Shown here piece after piece: positions 401 to 63,393 of a DNA stretch of 64,000 nucleotides (positions are counted from its first letter, which is position 1; each line of letters opens with the position of its first letter). The DNA is taken from the NCBI GenBank assembly GCA_900618425.1, contig UZAN01040058.1, forward strand, positions 1 through 64,000, in the 5' to 3' direction. The translations under genes were made by a program, and so were the position numbers. The notes beneath the pieces are model-generated. The model had not been told where the DNA came from and did no database searches. It saw nothing but the letters and a program-made list of their open reading frames with translations. This DNA comes from Echinostoma caproni. Lineage: Eukaryota; Platyhelminthes; Trematoda; Plagiorchiida; Echinostomatidae.

Positions 401-415
401 ATCTGGAAAAGAATA
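401..415 (+). CDS. Micro-exon 1 (alpha, 15 nt)
   Basis: Exon atctggaaaagaata lies between acceptor ccactgttttcag and donor gtgagt. Phase 1 gives L-E-K-N. Its first two bases close a codon begun upstream of the window's first visible exon. Confidence 0.85.
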
Positions 416-3400
416 GTGAGTTTCTTCTACTGACTAAATAAAAAAGTATGGATGCAATGCGTTAGTTTTACGCTGAAAACATATGGTGAGAAAGCCGTAG
501 AGCATTTGACCCTTCATTAATCCATTTACCGGACTTTGCGCTCATGATGCAAATCAGATACCTGTCTAAAGGCATTCACTTCCACTTTATCCGATTTATG
601 TATTTAAAACATCTCAGTTCGATAAACAATAATTCCCATCAAACCGATAAGGAATCGGTTTTTTGCGCTAACAGCTCACGCAAAGTAGAGTGGTGGCTCA
701 CCGAGCACCCAAGAGACGTGTTTTTATATCACCAAGTAGACCGCGTAGTGACCCTCTTGATATCTTATTATCGATTGATTTGCTTTCAACAAAACATTCT
801 GACTTGATCATAGTGATAAGTGATCGAAATAGTATTACAATATAGACACCACCGGTAAGATTTCATCTTTGTATGAGTTCTGAAAAACACACTCGGTATC
901 ATTTAGGTTTACGGTCCTATAACACACTTCATGATGAAACGTATCATGTAATCTCAGGCAAGCACTCTTGACCAATGGTGGTGATAAGCATAGGTTAAAG
1001 TCATACATTATGCCCTGGAGAAAAGTTGAGTCAGTGCGGTAATGATTATTATTATTGTATGATGAATTCGTCGTGTAGATGAGACATGAGCTGAAAAGCT
1101 AGGAACCACTGGATAGCTATTTCAACCTGGTTAGGTCTCATCGGCAGTGCGTGATTCCATTGGCCTAACTGGGGATCAAACCCGGGATGTCACAAATAGA
1201 AAGTAAGAATACTACCAACTCTGTCATTGGGCAGCTAAGCAGACCGTTTCCCAATTTGAAGATTAAGAATATAGCACAAACCATGTTTACCAGCTTCCTG
1301 CTGATAACGGATCTCGCTGATCTCAGTACAAGGCTCCAAGGTTATGAACCAAGTGGAAAACTTTATATATTACTATTATCATAAAAATAATAATCAATAT
1401 TATTATCAATATTCATTAGGCATATGTGAGCGCAAAGTGTTGCACACTTTAACCACAAACTTAAAATATACGGCACACAACGAATTAAGGCAGACTGGGA
1501 CGAACTATGCAGTCTGAAATCAGAAAACCGTTTTTCATGTTTCGAATATACTTCGAAATGCACACAATCTGTAGACATTAGAAACAATGACGACTGTTCA
1601 CCATGAGCCTTGAGCACACATTTAAACAGATTTTACTGGCATGAATTAGAGGCGGATTTGGATTGATTTGATCCACAAACAAAGATCTACCATTCTTCCC
1701 TTTTGATTGTTCCTAATACATTTTTAAATTGATTTTGTATGCAATTATTTTAACCTGAAATATGACTTTAAAATCTCACTGATAACTGCTGCCAATTCAG
1801 AACATGATCAAGGTAAGTTAAAAAGAGGTAAAAAACTAAGGCTTGACGGGTTTCAGAAACCCCATAAGATAGTAAATGTAGATGATTTATATTTCTAAAG
1901 GTGATATTTTCAAAAATTAATTGGTATCATACACAAATTGCATCCATTTTCAAACTTTATTCCACTGTTCCGCTCCAGAAAATGCTTTCACGAGTAAGTG
2001 AATGAATGGAATCACACAGACCGTTAAGCTACTTCAAATGATAGAATCAGCACTTTACATAACATGATTCAAATATTATCTGATTAAGTTTCACAGGCCG
2101 GAAACGGCTTTAGGTCACCGAATGCCCAGAGTTTTGCTTTGGCTGGAATGATGGCTCTCGGAGAGTTTCATACTCCCCTTCGGTAGAAATTAGGTTCATT
2201 TAAAGCCAAACATGGAGCGGGCGCTTTTTGGTTGGTGAGGAACATGGAACAGCTTTTGCAGTGAAATAGACTGTCCTTGATTACGTCTGGTAGCCTCCTG
2301 AGTGCGTCCGGTAACCAACAGACTGGTGGTGTTTAATTTGTTTAATTTGTCTCCCCCATTATTGATAAACTGAGGCCTGAACTGCGCCGAAAATATGCTC
2401 CTTTTCATTGGACACACTACAAAATTTATCAGGGGCTGGCATCCACTTATGTTTGACCTCCGTCACAATAGCGCTTTCTATGAGGTCGGCGTTTTACAGT
2501 TTTCTCTGTACGGAAAAGGATCCCAAACTTTAGAACTTATCATTGCGCTCGTTTCGTTTATTTCCAACATCATCCCACTTGCCAAACTTCACATTTTCTT
2601 AATGCACTGGATATCCTTCCCCAATTGCGACACCTATGTTTAAACATGGCATTCCAAGTGCAATTTATTCATTACATTATGTGAACTTATGAAAACGCTA
2701 TTCTTTAGTAACGAGGTCGACAATAAAACGGTCCCCTAGCTTTTCAGGTAGTGACCCAGAACCGATGACTGGATCTGTCATATATCCTATGTATGCAAAT
2801 AAAAAAGTAAGCGTTGAATTAAGTAGTTCGTTTAGTTGCAGTGTGCACACAGCCGGTCCGCAGGTGAGTGATCAAGAGCCAACACACCAGCGTTTCACAA
2901 AACCGAACATATTATAAGGGAGCCCTTGCGTTACATGAATTCCGGGTGCAATCAAAAAGTTTAGGCAAGAAACCAATATCTTAGTGAGCGCGGAGAATTA
3001 ACTACTAAAATCTGATTGGCTGCAACAGATCAATTTTTTAATGGAATAAGTCCACATGATGTGTATGCGTTTGTGGTCGCAGGCAGCATCGATCAATCAG
3101 TCAGACCATATGTATGAATGGCCAACGCTTCAGTCGTTTTGTAGGCTACGGTTGGGCTTAAAGTCTTTAGGGAAAAGCATCCCTGGGTCCTTTATCAAGG
3201 TCAATAGAGTTTTAGGCACTTTGGCTTAGTGCCTCATGTTGTTCAGGACGTGGCACTTGATATTATTCAAATCTAAGCCTCATGTCTTTGTTCCCTAATG
3301 AACCCTGTCTTGATAGATTCTTAGTGGTCCAGTGATCCAGATTTCGTCTCTTTGACGTTGTGCGCAAGGATGGCAGCCAGGGTTATTGGTATGTAACAGC

Positions 3401-6400
3401 CGAATTTCCAAATCCATAGTACTTTACTAGAAATGTCATTTTCCTTGAATGGGGATTTGTCTACAGGGTAAAATGTTTATGGTATTGCGAAAGTCCCTAT
3501 CAGTCTGAGACAGGTCGAATCCCTAACCACTGATGAGCAGAAGTTGAAGAGTTACAGCATCAAATTCCAGCCTGTAATCTCAGAGGAATTTTTGCTCATC
3601 TACAACGTCACTTCTACTTCCTGATTTGCGATTGCATAAACTCGTACGAAATCGCGTATCTGAAGGTATTCGGTTGACTTCCAAATATTACAAGCGTACC
3701 GACTGCTCCATTTGAATTCTAAATAGTTTATGATTCCGTAAGGTGGGCCGTTGACCTTGTGCTCCAGTGACTATATTATTGAATTACACCGGTATGTTTG
3801 GAAAGGTCACTGTCAGTGGCGTGCTTTAAATCCTCGGGTTCTGGGTTTGGACAGTGTAATCTTCGGTAGTAGAGAGCTTTGCTGTCGCTCTGCTCAATAC
3901 TGCGGCTATATAGTAGCTTTTGCAGTTCGAGTAGTTGGAGTATCATTTCAAGCTATCCCAATATCATTTCAAGCTATGTGTGGTTTTCCCCCTTTATTGT
4001 TCATCATACAGTAGTGTATGCACCATGAAAAACTATGTTACAGCCATTATTGTGGCCTTCATCTGTTGAAAGCGACTGCCATTAACATATCATGTCTACT
4101 AATTTTATATAAATTTGGTGAATGCTCTGTCATAAGCATTCTGTCATAATGCCATAATTATTCAGAATATGTGGAAGGTAAGTTCACAGTTGAATATGAC
4201 CATTACGACAAATAACCAAAAAAGATTCCGAAACTGCATCAGTTGCTTTGCGACACATATGTAGAATTCAAGCTGGAGCAAGTTGCATGTCACTTAAACT
4301 TTGAAATACTACTAAGCTGGGAATTATTGTCCGCAGAACATCCATTGTGACTCTTCTAAGTCCCGTGTCATTGTTGCTTTATAATATTTGTTAGTTTCAT
4401 TTCGTCTGATTTAAGATTGTGTCCAATGTATCAGTATATGAAAGATAATCAGGTGTTTCGACCGACATAGTAATACAGTCTCTAGAAAATATATCATTTA
4501 CCCTAGATGAGATCGATATTCAACTTTTTACGTTTATGAGTGTTTTTTCATACTTCTCCAACCATATCGAATCGAATAATTTGAATCAGAAAACAAAATT
4601 TCATAAAAACCTATAAAACGTAATCAATAAAATAATCTATAACAATAAAACTTGATCTTATTTGGCGTTTATGGTAAAAGCTATTTGCTGCAAAGTCAAT
4701 AATTTCGACTTACAGGTAACACATAAGTTACGGGTAGACGCAGTTTCCAAGACAGTGTGCTGGAATTTCTTCTGAATCACTATCCTTGTTTTATTAAACG
4801 TTTTTTGCCATGAGAAGTCTCGTCACTTGGAATGATAATTGTCTAATTGACTAGACTGACTAATGTTTTGTAAAAATTGGCTCAATATCGATGCAGACGT
4901 GAAAGAGCGCAGTAAGTATTGTGAAATGTTTTGTTTTATTTTCCCTAGAGTCGGACACGAACGTTTGATAAAAATTGATTAGGAATAATGAATGAATAGA
5001 GATATTAAAGAAGCATTGGAATCCCTGTTAGAAAGACCGTCCAAACCAAAGCAAGACCAAAGTTCCCTCGGGCTAGTATGTTCTCTATTTTATGGTCGTA
5101 GTGTTTTTGACGGATTTTTCTTGACATGACATTTTCTTGCAAGATATTCGCTTTATTTAGCCTGTGATAAATTCCGATTAGGGGCCTAATTGAGTTATAC
5201 ACCCATCACAGCTCATCTTTGGTGCCTAGACACTGTTTCTTGTGACGTTCTGCACTTTCACTGACAGTGACATAAAGGACATATCTCATGCGCATTTGAA
5301 GTTTGGCCTTCAACGGAGAACCTATTTGAGAGATCCAAGTGCTTAGTACATCAGAATAAGAAATATCTGTCCTCGGATTCGCTATTCATGATCGCAAACA
5401 CAGATGAAATAGTTCAGATGAAGCGTTTCTTTGATGTTACGTTGATGTTTTGACCCGAACTGGTATATGTAACTACTGCCGGCAAACTTATTTTGTTTCC
5501 TATCATTTACAACCGGTTACATTTCTGCATCACCTTATGTAATATGTTAGAACAAACAAGCTGTGAGTTTTTCGCTCTCTAGACATTTGCATTTTTTTGC
5601 TTTATTCTACTGGTGAAATTACTTGAGATAATTTCGTCCTATAAGAATACTCAATTGGGATATCCCCGTGTAAACGTTTTAGTATACTTAGGTAGCGTTT
5701 GCGTAACCAGATGCTGTCAGGCAAAATCAGTGGTAGAACTCATTGTTTTCCGACCGTTCCAGACCCTTTTTGCTTTAAACACGACTAACAAATACACCAA
5801 AACTGGTCCAATCTACAAATTATACAATATGCCAAGTGTTTGTCATCTAGCCAACAAGCTCTAGGGTTTTGAATTTCTAAAATTGTCTCATTCTGTCAGG
5901 TTGCAGTATAGTTTCCATGTTATATTCACGCCAAGAAGGGCCTATTTTCTTCTATTGCAGTTACTGCCTTTCAAAGTGAGTTCATTTTTCTGTTTTACTG
6001 GTCTCTGGCTAACAAAACTTGTAGTCTGTTGCGTATGCTCGGAGGAGGGGTTTTTACCGTTTGCTAACTACTATGAAAAACTATTAAATAAGGCAGTGAC
6101 TAACTGCTTCCATTGTCCTAAATGGGAACTGTATACCTGCAAAACAAAATAAACCACTGATCAGATATTGTTTCGATTGTTAAAGAGCCTAGAATAGTTT
6201 TCTTTAAATGACCTCTTTTTTGATTCAGATATGGTTTAAAAGTCAAACGTTAGAGAGAGAGGATCAGTAAAACTGAAGGCGGCCAGAATTTGGTTGAGGT
6301 ATTTTTCATGAGCAAATCTCCGTAATCTTAGAAAACAGTGTCACGGAAACTGATAAAAGAGAACAAAACAGAAAGAGCCTTGATTCATGGAACAATGTTA

Positions 6401-57400: not shown

Positions 57401-60400
57401 TTTTATCCCTTGTCCTCACTGTGTTAGACTCGGTTCTCCGTTGAACTGGGTCGGGGGGAAGAGGATTGGAGGGGAGGAGACTTGGCACTCTTCAATCAAC
57501 TCAATAAAACAGGGACATCGAACTGGATCACGTGTACCCGCCAATGCAACCCAAGGGCCAAATGACGCAGCAGAAAATGTCATGCGGTTAACTGAGAAGG
57601 GACGAAAACCGCAATCAGGACGAAAGGACAAATTCCTCACCCACAACCCTCATCTCCTCGCACCAGTTCAAAGGAGAAACGAGTTGAACATAGTGAGAAC
57701 AAGGGACAAAACAGTCGGTGAAGAAGAACAGATGTATAAACAGCCGGGTGCGAGCAGAACACTGCCGCTTCGCAAGCACTGATGATGTCACCTCAGCTGG
57801 TGATGAAAAGTTTGCAAACAAATTGCCAAGCTCAGCGAACAGCCGAAATGAAAAATATAGGCTAGAACTCGCTTCACGGATGAACCGCAGTGGTACCAGA
57901 AAACGTTTTCCCCAGGGTAGCAATCTCTCTCTCTGTGTGCACAATTAGTTGTCGATACCCGTGGAAAGGGGTGTGATGTGTGCGAATTCGGCCCGTCATT
58001 CCCAATACCCTGTTCCAGGTAGCAGTTAGAAATGTAAAAGACAAACCCGCTTTCTCGAGCATAAGATCCAAGTATCACTGGGATGTTTCTGTAAATCAAA
58101 TGTCTATGATACTTCATGGATTCCTCGTTGGGGACAATTTATCCACTCTCAACAGAAAGTAACCTGCACGTTTACAATGTGACTGGTGCTCTCTACTTCT
58201 ACTGCCAGATATCAGTAGCTTTACTTGCATACACATGAATTTGACACAATATTACCTCGGGTTTTACAGGAAAACAATATCGTAAGTGAACCACATCAGC
58301 TAGATGTCTTTTTGAGGCACCATATGAATTTATTATGTGAATCCCATTTTTACAACTGAGTGATTATTGAGGAAAATATTTTTTCAACAACCAATGCGAC
58401 TATAGAGCTAAACGGTTGCCAAGTTTAATTCATTGCTTGTGACATTCTCAGGGATTCCATTTAAATTTGCTAATACAACAATGACTTTTTCTGCATTGTT
58501 TCAGAATCAGCCTTTCAAGGTGAGATTTAGCATTCTGTTATAAAAACAACCTCTTATTCCGAAAATATTTTCATCCTTCTATTTATCAGCAATACAAAGT
58601 ACCGAGTAATCAATTACACGTGTAACCATCCAGTGTGGGATTTTCTAGTCTTTGGCGTAAGATATTTCATATAAGTCATCTATCAATCAACGTGGCCTCA
58701 CGTAAAAATAACTCGTAACTCACTTGCATTTCAGAATACCTTCAAAGTGAGTTCAGTTTTCTTAGTGTATACTGTTTGAATCAACCTCGCTTCATCTTAG
58801 TGTCAAACTGGGAGTCCACACCAGACATTGTTATATGCTCTGAGAGAAAAAGTGATAAAAACGCGACAGCAGTAGGATCATTTTGCTCTCTTTGACTGTA
58901 CGTGTCACAGAGAAAAGGGCAAAGTGTAGTTTGCCAATCTGCTATCCCATCACAACCTTTCAAAATGCCATCAATTCTAAAGGAGGATCTGCAGAGATAC
59001 GCTCGTTATCGAGGAAAGACAACGAAAAGCAGTGCAGGTTGTAACCGACTGGCACTCACTGAGGTGTATAAAGGTGTCAGCAGAAAATCCTCGAATGCAC
59101 TTTTTCAGTGATATTTGAATTTTGCGGCTGCATGGCTGAAAAACCATTTTGTAAGCGGAGTGTGGTACCACTGACACATTTTGAACAATGACGATATTTA
59201 ATTTCATATCAAATTTCATGAAACCTATTCTCCTGTTTTAAATACCCGATATTTTCAATTACAAATTTACAGAATTAGAAGATCAAAGTGAGCAATCCAC
59301 GACTTTAATACCTTTTTGTATTTATAACCTTAAAAATGATTTCTACATGTTGCTGTTGTAAATTAAGTGAAAAAGTGTTTGATCACCACTCTGAAGGTAT
59401 TCATCACCGGAGAGGGGGCTGGAAATTTGTTTTGACTCACGTATTTTGGCTGCTGTTGTTGTTCAATTTGCAAAACACTTGTTTCATTTTGGAAACACAA
59501 GTTTATCGATACAGGACCTGTGATCAAATGATCATAATACATGTAGGACATTAGTGTGTTCAAAATAATGACCAACTGTAGTGGTTTTAGTAGCGTTAGT
59601 AGTAGTAGGCAATGAACACAAAACACGAATCACGGAATACGAACCACTGGCCAGCATTCACGGACGGCACTGGATCGCACCGGCACTTGCAAGCAATATT
59701 TCACGTAACCGAGAGGCGAGGAAAAGGTCACTGTAGAAGTAGTTCGTTTATTGAAAGAAATAAGGGGGATTAAGCAATATATACAAAACAAACTCATTCT
59801 GGCGTCTGCTAATAGCGTTCTAATATTGCTGCCGTTGCTCAACTTCTGTCTGGGCCGCACGTTTTCTGATTGGTTGATACAATCGGCCTATGGCTTGTAG
59901 CCCAGATGGTGTGGTATGCACACGCTTTGCTGACGTCACCCGTGAAACTTGATTAATCACAGTTGTCCTAAAACTGTAACGTGTCGCTCCAGGGTATGTG
60001 CCATCTCGCCTGGATGGGATCATCGCACGAACCTATAGAAAAACAAAAAACCACAGTAAGTGAACCAATTAGGGATCGGATACAAGCTGATATCGAGAAT
60101 ATCTCCCCTTCGGATCGTGACACAAGCAGGACCCAAAACTTAATAATTTTGCAACTGCATCTTGTTTTGGAGCGAGTTGTCACCCTAACAGTCGAATGTT
60201 TAAACTGCACAGTCGCTGCCTGACTTTCACCATGCACTTGTAACCAATGACAAACTTCTCATTGGGAGAAGAATAATGTACGAGTGAGGCCCCTATACGA
60301 ACAGTTGTACGGGTGCACAGTTTTCAACGTGACAGTTGGTACGTATCAAGTGTATCAAAGTCAATTGGTTTGCTGAGGATTGAATAAGCAAGTGTCTAAG

Positions 60401-63393
60401 AGTGATGATCGAACTGTGGTCTATTAATGGTGAACGCATTGACCACAATGCACTCCACGATGTGGAGTGGAGGTTGAACTGGGAGGGGGGTTCGCAGGTG
60501 TACAAACTGCTTGGATCATGGATTGAATGATGTGGTGAGTTTCTCCAAAACACTTTACTAGCGGTTTATTGCGATGATATCAGATCAAACGAATTAAAAT
60601 AGCACTGTAAGGAACGCAGAAATGGTCACTATACGAACAGCATTGGTCTAGTCTGAACCATACAAGAGGCACAGCTGACCCCGTTCAAAAATTAGACCAC
60701 CTAATAGATCGTGGTATCAGATGAACAGTTGACCATTCAAACTCCTCCAACATCTGCAATCCGCAATCTCATAATCTGCTGACAAATGGGCCCTGTTCTT
60801 GAAAGAACGAGATTGCACAAAGCCAACGACAGAAAAATCGGTACAATCTGTATTAAAAAATTACGTGTTTGTCGAGTCTGGTGCATGAACACGTTAGGCA
60901 CGTCTAATATTACGTTTAAATTGTAAATAAATATCTGAACAATAACAGTTACTTGGATTTATTAACATGGCTTCTCCCAGCGAATCTGTTTTCCCATCAG
61001 AGCTTTATATAGTAGCATAAAATGTTGCTTTCCATTGCAAGTCTTTTACCTGAAACTACCGTCTGAAATGAAGCCTGCTTCGCTCGTCTCCTTGATACAT
61101 ATGTTATTTTGTTGCACTCAATCCATTTTGTTCATTTTAGGAGAACAACAGCGTAAGTCTGTTCTCCCTTAATTCCGATGGATAAATTACCTTTGCCAAT
61201 CCTACTGCGGTGTGTCACTAATGGACTTGCGGCTAGGCCGCTTGTTGCATTTCTTTCGCCGATGGAGATTTTGTTTTATTTATTGATCCACTAAAGTCAC
61301 TGAAAATAATTTTCACCGTCTAAACTGATTGAGCCATTCGCACAAGGTGATGGCAGTCGACCGTGAAGCTAAGGAGTAAGGATTTGAAGTCCCAAACCGA
61401 AGGTTCACCGTTCGTGTCGTGATAGGAACACAACATATATGCACGGTTGACGAAACCTAAACGGGTAGAAACAGCTGTCCAGTGCCCTTTGTCGGTTATC
61501 GCAAACATTTCTATCATATAGTGAACAATTAGCGATCTCCCAAGGAGTGAAACCCACACCCAAGATTATCAACAGTGCCTGGTGCCTCTGAAAAACTGAC
61601 TGGGCTAATCCAAAAATTTACCGTCTAATTTTCACTTTGTTTACAGTTGCGGAATATGCGGGTGAGTACTGAATTGTTTATTGCCATATGATTTAGGCTT
61701 TTTTTTGTTATCATGAATCAATTCACTAATCACATAATCAAAACCGGACCGGAATGAGTAGACAATGATCGGGCCAGGTGCACTTGTGTTGCCAGTTTCA
61801 TAGGCCAAATAATGAGACCGCTGGTGTAGCTTATTATAAGGGGTCCGCGGGTTGACTAAAACGTACAGCAAAAATACTCCATTGATCCAGCAGAATTCAC
61901 CACCATCTACTGCATTTCTCATTTCACCTGTGAAGAACAATTAAGCTTTACAAACTGACAACGGCTGACACAACCTATACTCGTCAATACGTTTTGATGA
62001 CCACTGAAGAAGCTTAAGAGTTCCTGTTTCCTGTTTGTCTATGAAACTATGGTTCTGTCAGAGTTGTTCGCATCCACCACCCTAACCCAGTGATTGAGCT
62101 AATCACAGTAAGCCTCATCAGTATAGTAGTTATATTGTAATACACAGGATTCGAGTAGGAGTGTACTGGAACACGATGCATGATGTCAAATATCTTTAGA
62201 AAATGTCTGATATTCAAGAACATAGCATTATCAGAGAAGTTGCAAACCAGTCGACGTTTTCGTTACTTTCGTTAACCGTGCTCCGTGTTTTGTTTTGTGA
62301 ATTTGTCAAACTGAGTTTAGATTTTCGCTGAACGTCATTTGAATCCATGCTTGATACCTGAGTTTCTCTCAGCAATGGAAAAATTGATTTCTCCTTCCCA
62401 AAACATCCCAAAATGGCCTATGATTAACCTGCAGCGATATGAAAACCGGACCTTCAACAAACCAAATACCCTCAACAACGCACACTTTCCCTAATTGCAA
62501 TAGGCGAAATACTCTGATGATCACTCGAACAACTGCTAGATGGTTAGCTAAGGTGGATCTGAATGTCTGCATAGCACCAGACAAAACAAGAAAATCGTCT
62601 CAATGTAACAAACACATTTCTGAAATTCGTGACAGTTGTATTCAATTCATCAGGTATTATCCAGTCCCATAACTAACCTATTTTCAACAAAAACCCATTT
62701 TACGAACAGCATATCTTAAAGGCAAGTGAAGCTGTTTTTGGAACCATCATACATACAAAATTAGATGCTTTTACAGTTGTCAGAGAAATTCTGTGTCCAC
62801 GACGAACAAGTGGCCTTTTCCTGGGACCGCAATGCACACTGTAAATAAACACAGATTTTAAAAATAAAAGCTAGCGAGAGACTTTCACTGTTGCGTTTAA
62901 ATTATCCCGTGGCCGGTTTTTTATCGTCTCCAATAACGAGGGCCAATGTGCTTATTATTTTTGAATCCACTGGTAATGATGAATTTAAAATTGACATTGT
63001 GTGTCCAATAACCATTTTTTCAGGTCTCCAAGAAGAAGGTGAGTGAAATCACATTTGAGAAAATAGTGAACCAGACTGTGCGCCGTCTGTTTGCTGCGCG
63101 ATATAATTAAGGTATCAAACCCTTTACCCGATCCGTAATTGAAAGTAAACATGTACCGTTTTCCTCCAGAATGAAATAGTTTGTGCTGAATACCCGAAAA
63201 TCCACGCGGATAAATTAAAAACTTGTAAATCATTCATGCATATATACATGCATGACGCTGCATCTTGCATTCATGCGGATTTTACATTAGAAAAAAACAC
63301 AATTCATTCGGTATTTTGTGAAAAATGTATGAGTAGTGCGCAAAGTAAAATCCTCTTTGTTCACATTGATTTTAATTTCAGCCCAAAAGAAAA
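401..63393 (+). CDS. Giant micro-exon gene, 18-residue-repeat helical protein (partial, both ends open)
   Basis: What I see: 65 exons of 12 (34) or 15 (31) bases plus one of 123 bases, each flanked by AG and a consensus-like donor, all reading open in phase 1 with no stop in or across any junction. Exon order follows a cycle A(12)-alpha(15)-B(12)-beta(15). All 15 A exons encode an aromatic residue or His followed by V/I/L. All 16 alpha exons begin with L, I, V or M. B exons are mostly D/E/K/Q/N/S/T. Nine of 15 beta exons have F or Y third. The split codon at alpha-to-B joins is Lys in 11 of 16. Inference: the product is a rod of about 330 residues in this window, amphipathic, with an 18-residue (7+11) repeat. 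What is known: schistosome micro-exon genes have symmetrical exons of a few dozen bases or less that allow exon skipping without frameshift, often behind a signal peptide. I do not recognise the protein family. No N-terminal exon is certain. It could also be two or three tandem genes, but the cycle keeps register throughout. Confidence 0.85.
416..1800. other. Intron 1
   Basis: Contains a dispersed-repeat fragment near 1095-1190. A 9-nt candidate exon acaccaccg at 846-854 (donor gtaaga) has a weak acceptor and does not fit the exon cycle. Nothing else seen. Confidence 0.5.
1095..1190. repeat. Dispersed repeat fragment, related to 19940-20240
   Basis: Reads ...ctggatagctatttcaacc...ggtctcatcggcag..., closely resembling ctggacagctgtttcgatc...ggtctcatcatcacgg at 19953-20000. 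The end, gatcaaacccggga, looks like a decayed B-box. Confidence 0.5.
1801..1812 (+). CDS. Micro-exon 2 (B, 12 nt)
   Basis: Exon aacatgatcaag; acceptor ctgccaattcag, donor gtaagt. Junction codon Lys, then H-D-Q. Confidence 0.88.
1979..1993 (+). CDS. Micro-exon 3 (beta, 15 nt)
   Basis: Exon aaaatgctttcacga; pyrimidine-rich acceptor tgttccgctccag, donor gtaagt. Junction Glu, then N-A-F-T, matching the A-F core of exons 7, 37 and 59. Confidence 0.87.
1994..4165. other. Intron 3
   Basis: No exon, repeat or RNA gene recognised. Open frames here are short and unsupported. Confidence 0.5.
4166..4177 (+). CDS. Micro-exon 4 (A, 12 nt)
   Basis: Exon aatatgtggaag; acceptor ccataattattcag, donor gtaagt. 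Junction Lys, then Y-V-E, the archetypal A exon. Confidence 0.87.
4897..4911 (+). CDS. Micro-exon 5 (alpha, 15 nt)
   Basis: Exon acgtgaaagagcgca; acceptor caatatcgatgcag is poor in pyrimidines, donor gtaagt is strong. Junction Asp, then V-K-E-R. Its size and class fill the slot between A exon 4 and B exon 6. Confidence 0.7.
5551..5562 (+). CDS. Micro-exon 6 (B, 12 nt)
   Basis: Exon aacaaacaagct; acceptor tgtaatatgttag (moderate), donor gtgagt. Junction Lys, then Q-T-S. One of only two micro-exons ending in T. The next exon begins tt, so the join is TTT and not a stop. Confidence 0.7.
5961..5975 (+). CDS. Micro-exon 7 (beta, 15 nt)
   Basis: Exon ttactgcctttcaaa; strong acceptor ttttcttctattgcag, donor gtgagt. 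Junction Phe, then T-A-F-Q. Confidence 0.87.
5976..7260. other. Intron 7
   Basis: Nothing recognised beyond the splice sites. Confidence 0.5.
7261..7272 (+). CDS. Micro-exon 8 (A, 12 nt)
   Basis: Exon attacgtggccg; acceptor aaccttgtttcag, donor gtatgt. Junction Asn, then Y-V-A. Confidence 0.85.
7273..10248. other. Intron 8
   Basis: Nearly 3 kb without an in-cycle exon. A 48-nt candidate at 7912-7959 is open in phase 1 and has donor gtaagt, but its acceptor is mediocre and it sits between an A and an alpha exon where none is expected. Confidence 0.5.
10249..10263 (+). CDS. Micro-exon 9 (alpha, 15 nt)
   Basis: Exon aaattgaaactaaaa; acceptor tttctgcaactacag, donor gtgagt. Junction Glu, then I-E-T-K. 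Confidence 0.85.
11051..11062 (+). CDS. Micro-exon 10 (B, 12 nt)
   Basis: Exon aaacggaacaac; acceptor tcgttctgcttatag, donor gtaagt. Junction Lys, then T-E-Q. Confidence 0.87.
11265..11279 (+). CDS. Micro-exon 11 (beta, 15 nt)
   Basis: Exon gaacaattctcgaaa; acceptor tttattctctccag, donor gtacgt. Junction Arg, then T-I-L-E, a beta exon with aliphatic residues where others carry an aromatic. Confidence 0.85.
11579..11590 (+). CDS. Micro-exon 12 (A, 12 nt)
   Basis: Exon aatatattgttg; acceptor gcgaaaccgctgcag is weak, donor gtaagt. Junction Lys, then Y-I-V. Confidence 0.78.
12759..12773 (+). CDS. Micro-exon 13 (alpha, 15 nt)
   Basis: Exon atatgaataacgaaa; acceptor gtcctattttcag, donor gtaagc. 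Junction Asp, then M-N-N-E. Confidence 0.87.
13228..13530 (-). repeat. Dispersed repeat, inverted copy
   Basis: The reverse complement matches 13590-13880 and 61310-61600, for example in the segments around gtgaaacccacac and gtgcctggtg. The small overlapping frames here are repeat sequence, not genes. Confidence 0.6.
13590..13880 (+). repeat. Dispersed repeat, direct copy
   Basis: Begins near cattcgcacaaggtgatgg-like sequence and ends with caagagtgcttggtgcctctg. The same order is found at 61330-61590. It forms an inverted pair with 13228-13530. Confidence 0.6.
14190..14549 (-). pseudogene. Non-LTR retrotransposon reverse-transcriptase fragment
   Basis: A 119-codon open frame on the minus strand contains G-L-E-I-N-A-S-K-T-K-I-V-S-S about two thirds of the way in. 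This resembles the GLxIN-xxKTK motif that follows the YADD box of LINE reverse transcriptases. The catalytic YADD region itself is not recognisable and the flanks are decayed, so this is a dead fragment that inserted into intron 13 in antisense. Element family uncertain. Confidence 0.6.
14693..15448. other. Assembly gap, 756 Ns
   Basis: Run of N. The apparent open frame across it is an artefact. Single Ns also occur at 19851, 28207, 37028, 39825, 49953 and 53277. Confidence 1.
15676..15687 (+). CDS. Micro-exon 14 (B, 12 nt)
   Basis: Exon aggagaaacacc; acceptor atatgctgatacag, donor gtaagt. Junction Lys, then E-K-H. Confidence 0.83.
15880..15894 (+). CDS. Micro-exon 15 (beta, 15 nt)
   Basis: Exon ttttggaatatgaac; strong acceptor actgcttcttccag, donor gtgagt. 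Junction Leu, then L-E-Y-E. Confidence 0.87.
15895..17008. other. Intron 15
   Basis: A 9-nt candidate atcttgtgc at 16511-16519 (donor gtaagc) is out of cycle. Nothing else seen. Confidence 0.5.
17009..17020 (+). CDS. Micro-exon 16 (A, 12 nt)
   Basis: Exon accacattgaaa; acceptor acattcatatttcag, donor gtaagt. Junction His, then H-I-E. The only A exon with His in place of Tyr or Phe. Confidence 0.86.
17819..17833 (+). CDS. Micro-exon 17 (alpha, 15 nt)
   Basis: Exon acttaaagaacaaag; acceptor acgcacaaaccag, donor gtgagt. Junction Asn, then L-K-N-K. Confidence 0.83.
18046..18057 (+). CDS. Micro-exon 18 (B, 12 nt)
   Basis: Exon atttgaaggaaa; acceptor ttaacatctcacag, donor gtaagt. Junction Asp, then L-K-E. 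The next exon found is again class B, the first of three B-B junctions. Confidence 0.85.
18303..18420. mobile_element. Miniature fold-back element, relative of 57261-57850
   Basis: Inverted arms of 22 bases (18303-18324 and 18399-18420) match perfectly. A 24-base perfect palindrome centred on aagtggccactt lies at 18377-18400. The left part (gcttggcaatttgtttacaa and acgtttcatcaccag) matches the arm of the 57261 element. It looks like a non-autonomous, internally deleted copy. Confidence 0.65.
19940..20240. repeat. Dispersed repeat
   Basis: Two partly inverted segments share the ctggacagctgtttcgatc / ggaaacaggtgtc-type ends, and the left end matches 1095-1190. Small overlapping frames here are not genes. 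Confidence 0.5.
20948..20959 (+). CDS. Micro-exon 19 (B, 12 nt)
   Basis: Exon aggccgagagaa; acceptor gaaccattattcag, donor gtaagt. Junction with exon 18 is Lys, then A-E-R. Opens the first 13-exon block (exons 19-31). Confidence 0.85.
21116..21130 (+). CDS. Micro-exon 20 (beta, 15 nt)
   Basis: Exon acgaaacccaccaaa; acceptor aaattttcttcag, donor gtaagt. Junction Asn, then E-T-H-Q, with His at the usual aromatic position. Confidence 0.87.
21131..22457. other. Intron 20
   Basis: Nothing recognised. Confidence 0.5.
22458..22469 (+). CDS. Micro-exon 21 (A, 12 nt)
   Basis: Exon aattcattgagg; acceptor ccactcgtaatag is below average, donor gtaagt. Junction Lys, then F-I-E, the same peptide as exon 51. 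Confidence 0.8.
22621..22635 (+). CDS. Micro-exon 22 (alpha, 15 nt)
   Basis: Exon atttggaagatcaaa; acceptor tgccacatattgcag, donor gtgagt. Junction Asp, then L-E-D-Q. Exon 61 encodes the identical tetrapeptide with a different leucine codon. Confidence 0.88.
23216..23227 (+). CDS. Micro-exon 23 (B, 12 nt)
   Basis: Exon aaagcgaacatc; acceptor gttaatatcaatag, donor gtaagt. Junction Lys, then S-E-H, close to T-E-Q of exon 10. Confidence 0.82.
23514..23643. repeat. Near-perfect hairpin with AT loop
   Basis: Arms 23514-23566 and 23593-23643 are complementary. The inner 32 bases (23535-23566 against 23593-23624) match perfectly, and the outer part has a few mismatches. The loop is an ATATAT tract. 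In RNA this would be a long stem, or it could be a MITE-like element. Confidence 0.85.
24420..26980 (-). mobile_element. Degenerate CR1/Jockey-like LINE, antisense
   Basis: Read on the minus strand, from high to low coordinates. An endonuclease segment at about 26680-26480 carries L-S-D-F-N-V and then L-P-T-R-I-P-D-R-V-G-D, with an internal stop. Reverse transcriptase follows at 25600-25480 with N-Y-R-P-I-T-L-S-S-V-L-S-K-V-L and S-D-R-Q-Y-G-F. The catalytic region is near 25300-25250, where F-A-N-D-D stands for the usual FADD-type box. KTQ-like sequence lies near 25085. A C-terminal segment, A-K-S-W-K-I-L-P-H-S-V-F-P, is near 24560. The frame changes repeatedly, so the copy is dead. These motifs are typical of CR1/Jockey-type elements in flatworms. 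The 5' limit is uncertain and could reach about 27240. Confidence 0.8.
28044..28123 (+). repeat. tRNA-like sequence (tRNA pseudogene or SINE head)
   Basis: The acceptor stem gcctcg pairs with cgaggc. The A-box-like tagctcagctggtagagcg has D-stem gctc/gagc. The B-box-like gggttccaatccc has T-stem gtggg/cccac. The anticodon arm is irregular and the variable region too long, so a functional tRNA is unlikely. Confidence 0.6.
28236..28250 (+). CDS. Micro-exon 24 (beta, 15 nt)
   Basis: Exon aggctgattttgatg; acceptor gtttaattttcag, donor gtacgt. Junction Gln, then A-D-F-D. Confidence 0.86.
28498..28509 (+). CDS. Micro-exon 25 (A, 12 nt)
   Basis: Exon catacatcgaac; acceptor tgattcctttcag, donor gtaagt. 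Junction Ala, then Y-I-E. Confidence 0.88.
28605..29060. repeat. Dispersed repeat, copy 1
   Basis: Shares long stretches with 59635-60025 in the same order, for example tctgattggttg-tacaatcggcct and cgctttgctg-gtcacc. Minus-strand frames here belong to the repeat. Confidence 0.65.
29944..29958 (+). CDS. Micro-exon 26 (alpha, 15 nt)
   Basis: Exon aattgaacaagcaaa; acceptor gttgatgattcag, donor gtaagt. Junction Gln, then L-N-K-Q. Confidence 0.87.
31619..31664 (+). CDS. Possible alternative terminal exon
   Basis: After acceptor tgtgtacctttcag, phase 1 reads D-Y-Y-R-L-R-I-R-F-F-R-E-M-D and then TAA. The R-F-F-x-E core recalls the R-F-F-Q-E near the end of exon 55. No close AATAAA is visible, so this could be chance. 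Confidence 0.3.
31983..32016 (+). CDS. Possible first coding exon with signal-peptide-like start
   Basis: ATG opens M-I-L-F-L-I-P-L-V-V-T and leaves one base before donor gtaagc, exactly the phase 1 needed by every micro-exon. An in-frame stop lies a few codons upstream, so this is the first ATG. An acceptor-like aattaaatttccag ends at 31951, suitable for a 5' UTR splice or spliced-leader addition (inference). Joined to exon 27 the junction codon is Glu, then D-E-Q. The hydrophobic stretch is short for a signal peptide. Alternatives are an alternative promoter of the long gene, the start of a second gene, or chance. Confidence 0.4.
32501..32512 (+). CDS. Micro-exon 27 (B, 12 nt)
   Basis: Exon aggacgaacaat; acceptor gatgctcatttcag, donor gtaagt. 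Junction Lys, then D-E-Q. Ends in T and is followed by an exon starting tg. Joining it to exon 29 instead would create TAA, so skipping exon 28 would truncate the protein. Confidence 0.88.
32678..32692 (+). CDS. Micro-exon 28 (beta, 15 nt)
   Basis: Exon tgcaatcttctaaac; acceptor acacttttattacag, donor gtgagt. Junction Leu, then Q-S-S-K, an unusually polar beta exon. Confidence 0.85.
33496..33507 (+). CDS. Micro-exon 29 (A, 12 nt)
   Basis: Exon aatttattcaga; acceptor tgcctgcataacag, donor gtgagt. Junction Gln, then F-I-Q. Confidence 0.85.
34395..34409 (+). CDS. Micro-exon 30 (alpha, 15 nt)
   Basis: Exon aactgatagagaaca; acceptor cttttgttttacag, donor gtaagt. Junction Lys, then L-I-E-N. Confidence 0.88.
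34410..35988. other. Intron 30
   Basis: A near-exon atgaaatcaatgaat after tttgcag (34826-34840) lacks a GT donor and may be a decayed micro-exon. Nothing else seen. Confidence 0.4.
35989..36000 (+). CDS. Micro-exon 31 (B, 12 nt)
   Basis: Exon agacaattgaac; acceptor tgtcttttatttcag, donor gtaagc. Junction Lys, then T-I-E. Last exon of the first 13-exon block. Confidence 0.88.
36001..37409. other. Intron 31 (B-B junction)
   Basis: No convincing beta, A or alpha exon found. A 15-mer attcttcttcttcag at 36448-36462 has the right size and phase (S-S-S-S) but a poor donor (gtgtca) and acceptor context. Confidence 0.5.
37410..37421 (+). CDS. Micro-exon 32 (B, 12 nt)
   Basis: Exon aacaagccttac; acceptor cactttttttcag, donor gtaagt. 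Junction with exon 31 is Gln, then Q-A-L. Opens the second 13-exon block (exons 32-44). Confidence 0.88.
37551..37565 (+). CDS. Micro-exon 33 (beta, 15 nt)
   Basis: Exon atgaggcacatgcaa; acceptor cccatcgttacag, donor gtgagt. Junction His, then E-A-H-A, comparable to E-T-H-Q at the same place in the previous block. Confidence 0.86.
37820..37828 (+). CDS. Possible extra 9-nt micro-exon
   Basis: ttcacagtt lies between a very good acceptor, ttttttctgtgcag, and donor gtgagg. Phase 1 gives H-S and the exon is symmetrical. It sits between beta exon 33 and A exon 34, outside the cycle, so it may be an optional exon or chance. Confidence 0.3.
38332..38343 (+). CDS. Micro-exon 34 (A, 12 nt)
   Basis: Exon aatatatccatg; acceptor aactatcctctacag, donor gtaaga. 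Junction Lys, then Y-I-H. The cycle predicted a missing A here before I located it. Confidence 0.85.
38538..38552 (+). CDS. Micro-exon 35 (alpha, 15 nt)
   Basis: Exon acttggaacaacaga; acceptor tgcattaatttatag, donor gtaagt. Junction Asp, then L-E-Q-Q, close to L-E-D-Q at the same slot of the previous block. Confidence 0.87.
39052..39063 (+). CDS. Micro-exon 36 (B, 12 nt)
   Basis: Exon agaaacaacaag; acceptor ttaatcatttacag, donor gtgagt. Junction Lys, then K-Q-Q. Confidence 0.87.
39064..40352. other. Intron 36
   Basis: Short CACACG/CACGCA low-complexity tract near 39678-39700 and a B-box-like gagttcgaatcgc near 39720. No exon seen. Confidence 0.45.
40353..40367 (+). CDS. Micro-exon 37 (beta, 15 nt)
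   Basis: Exon aggacgcattcaacg; acceptor gacttgacctttcag, donor gtgagt. Junction Glu, then D-A-F-N. Confidence 0.88.
41187..41198 (+). CDS. Micro-exon 38 (A, 12 nt)
   Basis: Exon aatttctcaaag; acceptor gaatttgttccag, donor gtaggt. Junction Glu, then F-L-K. Confidence 0.87.
41953..41967 (+). CDS. Possible extra 15-nt micro-exon
   Basis: ctgagcagcagcacc follows a strong acceptor, ttgtttatttcag, and reads E-Q-Q-H in phase 1. The donor gtcagt is weak, and A exon 38 and alpha exon 39 already adjoin in the cycle. Possibly a decayed or optional exon. Confidence 0.3.
42221..42235 (+). CDS. Micro-exon 39 (alpha, 15 nt)
   Basis: Exon atttggataaacgca; acceptor gccgttgatttcag, donor gtaagc. Junction Asp from exon 38, then L-D-K-R. 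Confidence 0.87.
42236..44419. other. Intron 39
   Basis: Contains the (TA)n tract at 42992-43018. No exon or gene recognised. Confidence 0.5.
42992..43018. repeat. (TA)n microsatellite
   Basis: Uninterrupted alternating T and A of about 27 bases. Shorter AT tracts lie at 23640-23665, 55793-55810 and 63598-63630. Confidence 0.95.
44420..44431 (+). CDS. Micro-exon 40 (B, 12 nt)
   Basis: Exon aacaagacaaac; acceptor tacattattccatag, donor gtaagt. Junction Lys, then Q-D-K. Confidence 0.87.
44616..44630 (+). CDS. Micro-exon 41 (beta, 15 nt)
   Basis: Exon ttttggcctatcagg; acceptor gatttcttttggcag, donor gtaagc. Junction Leu, then L-A-Y-Q. Also found by asking what the cycle was missing at this place. 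Confidence 0.86.
45110..45121 (+). CDS. Micro-exon 42 (A, 12 nt)
   Basis: Exon aatacgttaaga; acceptor ttaaaacgttctag, donor gtaagt. Junction Glu, then Y-V-K. Confidence 0.85.
45365..45379 (+). CDS. Micro-exon 43 (alpha, 15 nt)
   Basis: Exon aaatggaacatgaag; acceptor aaattccacaatcag, donor gtaagt. Junction Lys, then M-E-H-E. The M here is internal, so this ATG is not proposed as a start. Confidence 0.84.
45632..45643 (+). CDS. Micro-exon 44 (B, 12 nt)
   Basis: Exon aaagcgttcaac; acceptor aactcaattttag, donor gtgagt. Junction Glu, then S-V-Q, matching T-I-E at the end of the previous block. Closes the second 13-exon block. Confidence 0.86.
46073..46084 (+). CDS. Micro-exon 45 (B, 12 nt)
   Basis: Exon aagatgaaatga; acceptor tttcccaatttttag, donor gtaagt. 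In phase 1 it reads D-E-M, so the apparent tga is out of frame. Third B-B junction, only 429 bases after exon 44. Confidence 0.86.
   Translation, partial: KMK
46211..46225 (+). CDS. Micro-exon 46 (beta, 15 nt)
   Basis: Exon atcaatctgttgaaa; acceptor tgctatattctag, donor gtgagt. Junction Asn, then Q-S-V-E. Confidence 0.86.
46826..46837 (+). CDS. Micro-exon 47 (A, 12 nt)
   Basis: Exon aatatgtcagtg; acceptor tcgctttatttcag, donor gtaggt. Junction Lys, then Y-V-S. Confidence 0.86.
46936..46950 (+). CDS. Micro-exon 48 (alpha, 15 nt)
   Basis: Exon agctccaagtgaaga; acceptor aaacttcgttgcag, donor gtgagt. Junction Glu, then L-Q-V-K. The preceding intron is only 98 bases. Confidence 0.87.
46951..48332. 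other. Intron 48
   Basis: A B-box-like gtgttcgaatcccac at 48151-48165, followed by a short CCA run, suggests a SINE tail. No exon seen. Confidence 0.45.
48333..48344 (+). CDS. Micro-exon 49 (B, 12 nt)
   Basis: Exon aacaaaacgaag; acceptor ccctaaccgtctag, donor gtaggt. Junction Lys, then Q-N-E. Confidence 0.85.
48468..48482 (+). CDS. Micro-exon 50 (beta position, 15 nt)
   Basis: Exon aactggacaaggcca; acceptor caactcatattacag, donor gtaagt. Junction Glu, then L-D-K-A. It occupies a beta slot but looks more like an alpha exon. Confidence 0.86.
48914..48925 (+). CDS. Micro-exon 51 (A, 12 nt)
   Basis: Exon aattcatcgaaa; acceptor ttgtttactcttcag, donor gtgagt. Junction Lys, then F-I-E. Confidence 0.88.
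48926..50264. other. Intron 51
   Basis: Apart from the 6-nt candidate I see nothing. The overlapping frames on both strands at 49385-49634 have no recognisable motif. Confidence 0.45.
49028..49033 (+). CDS. Possible 6-nt micro-exon
   Basis: aaaaag follows acceptor tgtcccctttaatttag and precedes gtaacc, a weak donor. In phase 1 it would add two residues (junction Lys plus Lys). Out of cycle, between A exon 51 and alpha exon 52. Confidence 0.2.
50265..50279 (+). CDS. Micro-exon 52 (alpha, 15 nt)
   Basis: Exon cgctgaacagtcaaa; acceptor ttttactatttcag, donor gtgagt. Junction Thr, then L-N-S-Q. Confidence 0.87.
50920..50931 (+). CDS. Micro-exon 53 (B, 12 nt)
   Basis: Exon agaagaaaaaag; acceptor atgattgttaacag, donor gtgagt. 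Junction Lys, then K-K-K, a tetralysine. Confidence 0.83.
50932..52910. other. Intron 53
   Basis: A B-box-like gggttcaatcctc lies near 51784. At 52741-52752, catacattgcac resembles exon 25 but is followed by ag instead of a GT donor. Nothing else seen. Confidence 0.45.
52911..52925 (+). CDS. Micro-exon 54 (beta, 15 nt)
   Basis: Exon aagaggaatatcaag; acceptor ttaaatttttacag, donor gtaggt. Junction Glu, then E-E-Y-Q. The next intron is only 82 bases. Confidence 0.88.
53008..53130 (+). CDS. Exon 55: 123-nt exon, acidic and dileucine-like tail
   Basis: Strong acceptor attgcccctgtttcag. Phase 1 stays open and the length (41 codons) is again symmetrical at donor gtatgt. It encodes an acidic start (N-V-E-D-N-D-E-E-N), then F-S-D-E-I-S-P-L-L (a [DE]xxxLL-type sorting motif, by sequence only), then R-H-Q-P-M-K-P-W-K-R-F-F-Q-E-Y-G-V-F. 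This is unlike the helical repeat on either side. If the donor is ignored the frame continues C-M-F-V-F-Y-A-L-T-F-H to TAG at 53163-53165, with AATAAA at 53194-53199, so it could be a terminal exon with a short hydrophobic end. I do not recognise the family. Confidence 0.75.
53194..53199 (+). promoter_or_regulatory. Possible polyadenylation signal
   Basis: AATAAA begins 29 bases after the stop reached by reading through exon 55. Such hexamers are common by chance in AT-rich DNA; the position is what makes it notable. Confidence 0.35.
53200..55601. other. Intron 55 or possible gene boundary
   Basis: No signal-peptide-like first exon was found. A 34-nt open segment 54877-54910 between ttgctttcag and gtaagc is asymmetrical and does not fit phase 1. 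Otherwise nothing. Confidence 0.45.
55602..55613 (+). CDS. Micro-exon 56 (A, 12 nt)
   Basis: Exon attttattcgcg; acceptor cctgttttgtttcag, donor gtaggt. Reads F-I-R. The junction is Tyr after exon 55 or Asp if exon 55 is skipped; both are open. Confidence 0.87.
56505..56519 (+). CDS. Micro-exon 57 (alpha, 15 nt)
   Basis: Exon agttggaagaacaaa; acceptor cattttaattacag, donor gtgagt. Junction Glu, then L-E-E-Q. Confidence 0.88.
57261..57850. mobile_element. Fold-back (long inverted-repeat) element
   Basis: The outer arms, 57261-57359 and 57752-57850, are close reverse complements (ttcgctgagcttggcaattt against its complement). Weaker complementarity extends inward to about 57475 and 57640, giving arms near 210 bases. 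The arm family recurs at 18303. Open frames inside on both strands mirror one another because of the inverted structure. It looks non-autonomous; no transposase motif seen. Confidence 0.75.
58270..58281 (+). CDS. Micro-exon 58 (B, 12 nt)
   Basis: Exon gaaaacaatatc; acceptor cctcgggttttacag, donor gtaagt. Junction Arg, then K-Q-Y. Confidence 0.86.
58505..58519 (+). CDS. Micro-exon 59 (beta, 15 nt)
   Basis: Exon aatcagcctttcaag; acceptor tgcattgtttcag, donor gtgaga. Junction Gln, then S-A-F-Q, nearly the T-A-F-Q of exon 7 over 50 kb away. Confidence 0.87.
58735..58746 (+). CDS. Micro-exon 60 (A, 12 nt)
   Basis: Exon aataccttcaaa; acceptor actcacttgcatttcag, donor gtgagt. Junction Glu, then Y-L-Q. 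Confidence 0.88.
59273..59287 (+). CDS. Micro-exon 61 (alpha, 15 nt)
   Basis: Exon aattagaagatcaaa; acceptor attacaaatttacag, donor gtgagc. Junction Lys, then L-E-D-Q, identical in protein to exon 22. Confidence 0.86.
59635..60025. repeat. Dispersed repeat, copy 2
   Basis: Collinear with 28605-29060. An apparent donor gtaagt at 60056 just beyond it has no symmetrical exon upstream. Confidence 0.65.
61141..61152 (+). CDS. Micro-exon 62 (B, 12 nt)
   Basis: Exon gagaacaacagc; acceptor ttgttcattttag, donor gtaagt. Junction Arg, then E-Q-Q. Confidence 0.88.
61310..61600 (+). repeat. Dispersed repeat, third copy
   Basis: Same family and orientation as 13590-13880. Fills much of intron 62. Confidence 0.6.
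61647..61661 (+). CDS. Micro-exon 63 (beta, 15 nt)
   Basis: Exon ttgcggaatatgcgg; acceptor tcactttgtttacag, donor gtgagt. Junction Leu, then A-E-Y-A. Confidence 0.87.
61662..62709. other. Intron 63
   Basis: Nothing recognised apart from the splice sites. Confidence 0.45.
62710..62721 (+). CDS. Micro-exon 64 (A, 12 nt) with GC donor
   Basis: Exon catatcttaaag; acceptor cattttacgaacag. The donor is gcaagt, the usual context of GC-AG introns. Junction Ala, then Y-L-K, exactly the A class expected between beta exon 63 and alpha exon 65. Confidence 0.65.
63024..63038 (+). CDS. Micro-exon 65 (alpha, 15 nt)
   Basis: Exon gtctccaagaagaag; acceptor ataaccattttttcag, donor gtgagt. Junction Gly, then L-Q-E-E. 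An unusual start, as most exons begin with A. Confidence 0.86.
63382..63393 (+). CDS. Micro-exon 66 (B, 12 nt)
   Basis: Exon cccaaaagaaaa; acceptor gattttaatttcag, donor gtaggt. Junction Ala, then Q-K-K. Last exon found; a beta exon should follow to the right of the window. Confidence 0.84.

Follow-up and report, generated by a model that had tools for sequence, protein, structure and literature searches.

A four-class cycle of 12- and 15-nucleotide micro-exons encoding a predicted helical repeat of 18 residues in a probable flatworm gene

Whether exons correspond to structural units of the proteins they encode is an old question, and one seldom answerable because exon borders are few and irregular. 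The locus considered here, a stretch of 64,000 nucleotides (the window), presents dozens of exon borders at fixed angles round one predicted helix, and so raises the questions of what kind of gene the window belongs to and how its exons relate to that helix. A first-pass annotation had read the window as a four-exon cycle, A-alpha-B-beta, that encodes an 18-residue helical repeat and maps structural modules one to one onto micro-exons.

Micro-exons of two lengths in a single frame

Acceptor-donor pairs enclosing 3 to 60 bases were collected on both strands of the window. On the plus strand, strong pairs number 33 at 12 nt and 28 at 15 nt, while the remaining 56 lengths have 0-5 each. The minus strand, which serves as a control, has 0-3 at every length. 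Curation gives a chain of 65 micro-exons on the plus strand, spanning positions 401-63393, each of 12 or 15 nt (Table 1); one A exon (62710-62721) was found by a relaxed look where the cycle was short of an A. All 65 are in phase 1-1, beginning with the last two bases of a codon and ending with the first base of the next. Spliced together, they encode 290 residues with no stop codon, the other two frames containing 11 and 22 stops. Among whole codons lying inside single exons (64 exons), stops number 0 of 223 in phase; the two alternative phases have 17 of 223 and 11 of 287. The 290 residues include no proline, no cysteine and a single glycine (in the other two frames, prolines number 9 and 9 and glycines 0 and 25), and with 51 K+R and 67 D+E the chain is net acidic. 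Chance splice-like matches as the source of these exons are rejected by the length and strand controls, and by the recurrence of exons of this type elsewhere in the genome.

Table 1. Curated micro-exons of the window, in order along the chain
Exon	Residues	Length (nt)	Position	Strand	Remark
alpha	LEKN	15	401..415	+	
B	HDQ	12	1801..1812	+	
beta	NAFT	15	1979..1993	+	
A	YVE	12	4166..4177	+	
alpha	VKER	15	4897..4911	+	
B	QTS	12	5551..5562	+	
beta	TAFQ	15	5961..5975	+	
A	YVA	12	7261..7272	+	
alpha	IETK	15	10249..10263	+	
B	TEQ	12	11051..11062	+	
beta	TILE	15	11265..11279	+	
A	YIV	12	11579..11590	+	
alpha	MNNE	15	12759..12773	+	
B	EKH	12	15676..15687	+	
beta	LEYE	15	15880..15894	+	
A	HIE	12	17009..17020	+	
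alpha	LKNK	15	17819..17833	+	
first of five-exon unit's 12-nt pair	LKE	12	18046..18057	+	perhaps the extra 'stutter' exon
second of pair	AER	12	20948..20959	+	
beta	ETHQ	15	21116..21130	+	
A	FIE	12	22458..22469	+	
alpha	LEDQ	15	22621..22635	+	
B	SEH	12	23216..23227	+	
beta	ADFD	15	28236..28250	+	
A	YIE	12	28498..28509	+	
alpha	LNKQ	15	29944..29958	+	
B	DEQ	12	32501..32512	+	
beta	QSSK	15	32678..32692	+	
A	FIQ	12	33496..33507	+	
alpha	LIEN	15	34395..34409	+	
first of five-exon unit's 12-nt pair	TIE	12	35989..36000	+	
second of pair	QAL	12	37410..37421	+	
beta	EAHA	15	37551..37565	+	
A	YIH	12	38332..38343	+	
alpha	LEQQ	15	38538..38552	+	
B	KQQ	12	39052..39063	+	
beta	DAFN	15	40353..40367	+	
A	FLK	12	41187..41198	+	
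alpha	LDKR	15	42221..42235	+	
B	QDK	12	44420..44431	+	
beta	LAYQ	15	44616..44630	+	
A	YVK	12	45110..45121	+	
alpha	MEHE	15	45365..45379	+	
first of five-exon unit's 12-nt pair	SVQ	12	45632..45643	+	
second of pair	DEM	12	46073..46084	+	
beta	QSVE	15	46211..46225	+	
A	YVS	12	46826..46837	+	
alpha	LQVK	15	46936..46950	+	
B	QNE	12	48333..48344	+	
beta	LDKA	15	48468..48482	+	
A	FIE	12	48914..48925	+	
alpha	LNSQ	15	50265..50279	+	
B	KKK	12	50920..50931	+	
beta	EEYQ	15	52911..52925	+	
A	FIR	12	55602..55613	+	
alpha	LEEQ	15	56505..56519	+	
B	KQY	12	58270..58281	+	
beta	SAFQ	15	58505..58519	+	
A	YLQ	12	58735..58746	+	
alpha	LEDQ	15	59273..59287	+	
B	EQQ	12	61141..61152	+	
beta	AEYA	15	61647..61661	+	
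A	YLK	12	62710..62721	+	GC donor, weak acceptor; least certain exon
alpha	LQEE	15	63024..63038	+	
B	QKK	12	63382..63393	+	array continues beyond window to contig end

The alternation of lengths and the class-specific content that the first-pass annotation described are both borne out. Lengths alternate at 61 of the 64 steps of the chain, the three exceptions being 12-12 steps; for the 61 strong pairs, 51 of 60 steps alternate, a number as high in none of 20000 shuffles. Numbering the 18 positions of the unit from the residue split by the intron before A, every A exon (15/15) reads (Y/F/H)(V/I/L)x, with Y or F at position 2 in 14 and H in one, and V, I or L at position 3 in all 15. All 16 alpha exons start with L, I, V or M (position 6), and position 17, the third residue of beta, is hydrophobic in 11 of 15, being F or Y in nine. 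The beta position at 48468-48482 carries an alpha-like sequence, possibly that of a converted or shuffled exon.

Exon content recurs with a period of four. Similarity was measured as mean BLOSUM62 per residue, with shuffles made within size class. In a set of 62 exons, from which the first exon of each 12-12 pair is left out, it amounts to +1.24, +1.25, +1.26 and +1.31 at lags 4, 8, 12 and 16, against -0.77, -0.94, -0.75 and -0.80 at lags 2, 6, 10 and 14. On all 65 exons the signal slips, since the extra exons shift the count: lags 4, 8, 12 and 16 give 1.22, 1.16, 0.93 and 0.08, and lags 5, 9 and 13 give 0.66, 1.05 and 1.18. The contrast between lag 4 and lag 2 is 2.01 and 1.87 in the two sets, and none of 2000 shuffles reaches either. 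The four-exon cycle does encode an 18-residue repeat, but its order is not strict, because the window holds three five-exon units of 22 residues, each with an extra 12-nt exon (18046 and 20948, 35989 and 37410, 45632 and 46073).

Introns in the window range from 98 to 5008 bases, and no similarity between the introns of different units was found beyond dispersed repeats (seeds of 14; E 1e-5), so that the exons stand out. Similarity among the 62 exons does not fade from lag 4 to lag 16; taken with the absence of detectable intron similarity, this suggests that the units are old and that selection has kept the template. Introns between B and beta are short in the window (p 0.0009), a tendency not repeated elsewhere (p 0.13). 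The longest intron (23228-28235) contains a purine excess on the plus strand at 24001-28000 (GC skew 0.196, AT skew 0.132), a tRNA match at 28043-28124 (Rfam, 46.3 bits) and a palindrome at 23518-23641 with 61-base arms, 95% complementary, and a 2-base spacer. An inverted repeat with 146-base arms (83%) lies in the intron at 57258-57853, and a related 90-base arm (88%) at 18300 (18292-18431), also intronic; the two are probably a dispersed element. A run of N, either gap or masked sequence, occupies 14693-15448, between the exons at 12759 and 15676.

Searches of databases were uninformative. Four of the 16 longer ORFs of the window were scanned against Pfam with no match at E 0.001, and several others are runs of masked bases. 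A protein database search with 277 spliced residues examined 1103 candidates and found no relative at E <= 1; coverage of flatworm proteins seems poor there, since a reverse-transcriptase query also gave only three relatives, none with an informative name. The spliced residues gave three Pfam families at E up to 1, none above the curated cut-off, and three solved structures at E up to 1, the best at 0.035. A search of the genome for COX1 found no match.

The splice sites themselves bear on the encoded residues. Exons tend to begin with A after the AG of the acceptor and seldom end with T, and with phase-1 junctions this makes the junction codons K, N, E, D, Q or H. The junction consensus (A/G/C|AN) would in this way write a polar residue every four or five positions, and junction positions 1, 5 and 10 are never any of LIVMFYWC. 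The fourth junction behaves differently: five of the 15 beta exons have T as their first base, and in each of the five residue 14 is L or F, as against 0 of 50 other exons (p 0.0004), and outside the window the counts are 9 of 29 beta-like exons and 7 of 108 others (p 0.001). Thus, the protein appears to overrule the splice habit where a hydrophobic residue is favoured. As all exons are symmetric, skipping any of them would keep the frame.

The 18-residue unit and its hydrophobic stripe

Hydrophobic residues (LIVMFYW) along the 290-residue chain give one dominant helical peak, at 3.618 residues with a power of 34.6, which was not equalled in 1000 shuffles each of residues, of exons, and of exons within size class. 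The helical periodicity expected of the repeat is therefore present, but at 3.62 rather than 3.60 residues. A simple heptad coil (power 1.0 at 3.5) and a pure hendecad coil (power 0.6 at 3.667) are both rejected. The sharp peak at 18 residues that had been predicted is absent from the raw chain, where the power is 0.1 at 18 and 13.8 at 19, because the three 22-residue units shift the phase; it appears, with a power of 20.2 alongside 37.8 at 3.6, once the first exon of each 12-12 pair is left out. Leaving out the second exon instead gives a weaker helical peak (31.7 at 3.599), and the first is perhaps the extra one. Even in the raw chain the best power between 17.5 and 19.6 beats all 1000 of each kind of shuffle, in keeping with the claimed 18-residue periodicity, and the autocorrelation at lag 18 is 0.55.

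The hydrophobic stripe follows the 11-then-7 spacing proposed for it. In a hendecad, the register letters of the hydrophobic positions are a, d, e and h, and positions 17, 2, 3 and 6 have the spacings of this register, the remaining seven positions (10-16) forming a polar heptad. The hendecad runs from the end of beta through A and into the start of alpha, and the heptad comprises B and most of beta. Both blocks straddle exon borders, and the one-to-one mapping of modules onto micro-exons must for that reason be given up. In 13 of 16 units K or R occupies position 10. With this position about 22 degrees off the centre of the hydrophobic face, the stripe is broken once in each unit. The notion that all splice junctions avoid the hydrophobic face is accordingly rejected in part, the junction before B being the one at 22 degrees. 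With 3.618 residues per turn, the stripe falls within the 3.5-3.8 of a coiled coil, broken by the basic position 10. The mean hydrophobic moment is modest, at 0.29 (shuffles average 0.20 and reach at most 0.25); the best 18-residue stretch has a moment of 0.50, and the mean hydrophobicity of the chain is 0.04.

In the coiled-coil geometry described in PMC4786415, 18 residues make five turns and 11 make three, and an insertion of four residues is a stutter. A 12-nt exon contributes four residues, and hence one such exon equals one stutter; in the coiled coils of that description register is read from the protein sequence, whereas here each stutter is a whole 12-nt exon. Across the whole contig, five-exon units number five of 21, for which the mean helical period is 3.618. 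This count was made partly by hand and assumes that unit 18 lies partly inside a masked stretch (another run of N, at contig positions 69931-73308, may hide exons); two of the five were assigned by hand, one straddling the window end (63382 and 64694) and one beyond it without a strong beta exon (77362 and 79402). The extra exons are rather evenly spaced, but this is no more than suggestive, since 8.4% of 20349 placements are as even.

If each residue turns the helix by 100 degrees, a single 12-nt exon moves the face through about 40 degrees and a pair of adjacent exons (9 residues) through about 180, while four leave it where it was. The shift per exon being predictable, a direct test of the relation between exons and structure becomes possible by reading isoforms.

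The array elsewhere in the genome

The contig that holds the window (C1114) is 88,661 bases long and carries 18 more strong exons past the window, the last at 88184. The array runs to the end of the contig, and recurs on four others (C432, C806, C1159 and C2493). Across 426.5 Mb, a pattern built on the alpha exon has 20 matches (controls 0 and 0), on these five contigs and on C2811, where no micro-exons were found around the site. The corresponding A-exon pattern matches 17 places (controls 1 and 1), and adds contigs C994 and C3547. One alpha-exon site of 22 bases is identical between the window (56503) and C1159:31941, and is the only exon to align between the two 3-kb loci.

A further 137 micro-exons were collected from stretches not used to define the model, namely the remainder of C1114, the portions covered of C432 on either side of the interval from 118 kb to 136 kb, and parts of C806, C1159 and C2493. 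Of these, 73 are of 12 nt and 64 of 15 nt, other lengths (3 to 63) having at most four each; part of this sequence was centred on alpha matches, which favours 15-nt exons, and the longer stretches of C432 and C806 were chosen by place. In phase, no stop occurs among their 475 internal codons; out of phase, stops number 16 of 612 and 34 of 475. The order of classes is also retained, with an A-like exon followed by an alpha-like one in 19 of 21 cases against 7 of 31, and a 15-mer bearing F or Y followed by an A-like exon in 11 of 12 against 5 of 36.

For the window's own gene, no start or end was found on its contig. On C432, two arrays run in opposite directions away from starts that lie close together, at about 122.6 kb (minus strand) and 123.9 kb (plus strand); they are apparently two micro-exon genes arranged head to head. 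Upstream of each start stands GTATATAAACCG, and each has a hydrophobic leader-like first exon, MLRTVFSSWAPVLGLLIFMN and MFRIWFTTWVFGFVLLVDFMT respectively, followed by a possible second exon of 30 nt. Leader exons were found by an in-phase start and hydrophobicity alone, and the two were chosen among four candidates (one on the plus strand, three on the minus strand) for their mutual resemblance and shared TATA box; their phase and nearness suggest that they belong to the arrays. The distance between the starts (C432:122560-123960) is about 1.3 kb; their TATA boxes match, and their leader-like exons are related. A pattern made from them, which would miss more distant first exons, has no other match within 2 mismatches and 13 places at 3 (controls 1 and 1). 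On the plus strand of C432 the regular cycle starts only at about 137.6 kb, preceded by a few doubtful exons. The minus-strand array has an in-phase terminal exon of 89 residues (14677-14411) that occurs once in the genome, with a 12-nt exon-like site beyond it at 13521. On C806, a 27-nt exon at 98452 and a 3' exon at 99501, which is in phase, possibly form the end of the array.

The genome also carries a flatworm spliced leader, one of 37 bases known from the liver fluke Fasciola. Its last 29 bases plus GTAAG have an exact match at one place (C6287) and a match with one mismatch at another (C1629), with five more places at 3 mismatches and controls of 0 and 0; a leader of the Schistosoma type has no match in the genome within 3 mismatches. 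The matched leader is listed as 'Platyhelminthe 2' (PMC3795323), and through it the genome is placed in the Platyhelminthes, the group to which MEGs belong.

Known micro-exon genes and alternative readings

In fibrillar collagen, a single 54-nt exon encodes one 18-residue structural unit of Gly-X-Y triplets. The numbers are alike here, but the 54 nt are split over four exons, and the structure is apparently an alpha helix.

The array is of a kind already known, from flatworm MEGs and, by convergence, from the aphid megacycle. MEGs are flatworm genes with a signal peptide, the coding sequence of which consists mostly of small symmetric exons (PMC4350168), as does the part of the gene seen in the window. 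In S. mansoni, as far as described in PMC10526429, MEGs have 10 to 20 very short exons, those of 15 nt prevailing, and introns of 100 to almost 5000 bases, close to the range in the window; the 65 exons of the window, only part of a gene, differ from this in scale. A rule used for Hymenolepis asks for seven or more exons, of which half are shorter than 70 nt with a length divisible by three, in runs of at least four (PMC7653826), and the window's exons agree with it, though the rule was made for whole genes and only part of one is seen here. The window array departs from MEGs in that it uses just two exon sizes, keeps to a fixed order of four classes and has a unit of 18 residues. In those parts of the openly licensed literature that were covered, no description was found of micro-exons in a fixed cycle of four classes with a helical unit of 18 residues. 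The aphid megacycle is described as having over 100 micro-exons, a secretion signal and internal tandem duplications with matching intron places, and in one species 118 exons in about 100 kb encode 2092 residues (PMC9168663). It differs in being an insect gene with longer exons on average, and its description, in the portion covered, includes no 18-residue helix.

We consider it very probable that the window covers an interior stretch of a very large flatworm gene of the MEG kind, probably that of a fluke, encoding a long helical repeat. The array would have grown by tandem duplication of a module of four symmetric phase-1 micro-exons (12-15-12-15 nt) into a run of 18-residue units. Each unit would form five turns of one continuous alpha helix and present a hydrophobic hendecad and a polar heptad with a mostly basic position 10, and the occasional extra 12-nt exon would add the four residues of a stutter. 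Taken together, units of 18 and 22 residues average 3.62 residues per turn, which is close to the natural pitch, so that the hydrophobic stripe would stay on one face. On this model the array would be transcribed as one mRNA, the protein is predicted to fold into a long, nearly straight helical rod or coiled coil, and by analogy with MEG proteins it would be secreted, with isoforms produced by in-frame exon skipping. Such arrays probably encode giant secreted proteins of the MEG kind.

A different function for the helix is unlikely, though it deserves consideration: the repeat could be a multiplied form of the membrane-active amphipathic helices proposed for schistosome MEG-12 and MEG-26, and not a structural rod. 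Secreted micro-exon proteins with an amphipathic helix are known, some MEG-26 proteins having two repeated domains (PMC5825161), and the hydrophobic face of the window's repeat is regular, with the best stretch, as noted, reaching 0.50. The moments reported for S. japonicum MEG-12 and MEG-26 exceed 0.4, those of MEG-9 and MEG-19 being lower (PMC5825161). The mean moment of 0.29 in the window falls below these values, the mean hydrophobicity is only 0.04, the composition is net acidic, and every unit has a polar half. The known proteins, as far as described, have one or two short helices, in contrast to the run of units in one chain encoded here. Given the lower mean moment, a rod with a structural or binding role would be more likely than a peptide active on membranes.

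That the four-exon order is a relic of duplication without structural meaning, in an array decaying or rarely translated, is highly improbable. The lack of detectable intron similarity between units would fit old duplications, but no stop occurs in the 290 codons of the window or the 475 internal codons elsewhere, and exon similarity does not fall along the array in the set of 62. The intact splice sites do not count against decay, because the search required them.

Aphid genomes are poorer in G+C than the window, where G+C runs from 0.32 to 0.42. A micro-exon secreted effector from a lineage other than flatworms, such as the aphid bicycle and megacycle genes, is scarcely credible in view of this composition and of the exact flatworm spliced leader (controls 0 and 0), even though bicycle genes share the exon phase and megacycle combines internal tandem duplication with over 100 micro-exons (PMC9168663).

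The MEG-kind reading has a consequence for annotation as well. MEGs are reported to be difficult for gene finding (PMC7653826), and a gene in which all exons are of 12-15 nt may be missed altogether.

Tentatively, and with more doubt than confidence, the plus-strand array of C432 and those of C1114, C1159, C2493 and C806, perhaps with C994, might be parts of one gene of about half a megabase (the sum of the lengths of those contigs), encoding a secreted single helix of about 1,900-2,100 residues with its register kept by 12-nt stutter exons. Such a gene would have some 400 or more micro-exons, provided that the density on C1114 holds, and would in this exceed titin, which has 363 exons. Splicing could then cut rods of many lengths by dropping whole four-exon cycles.
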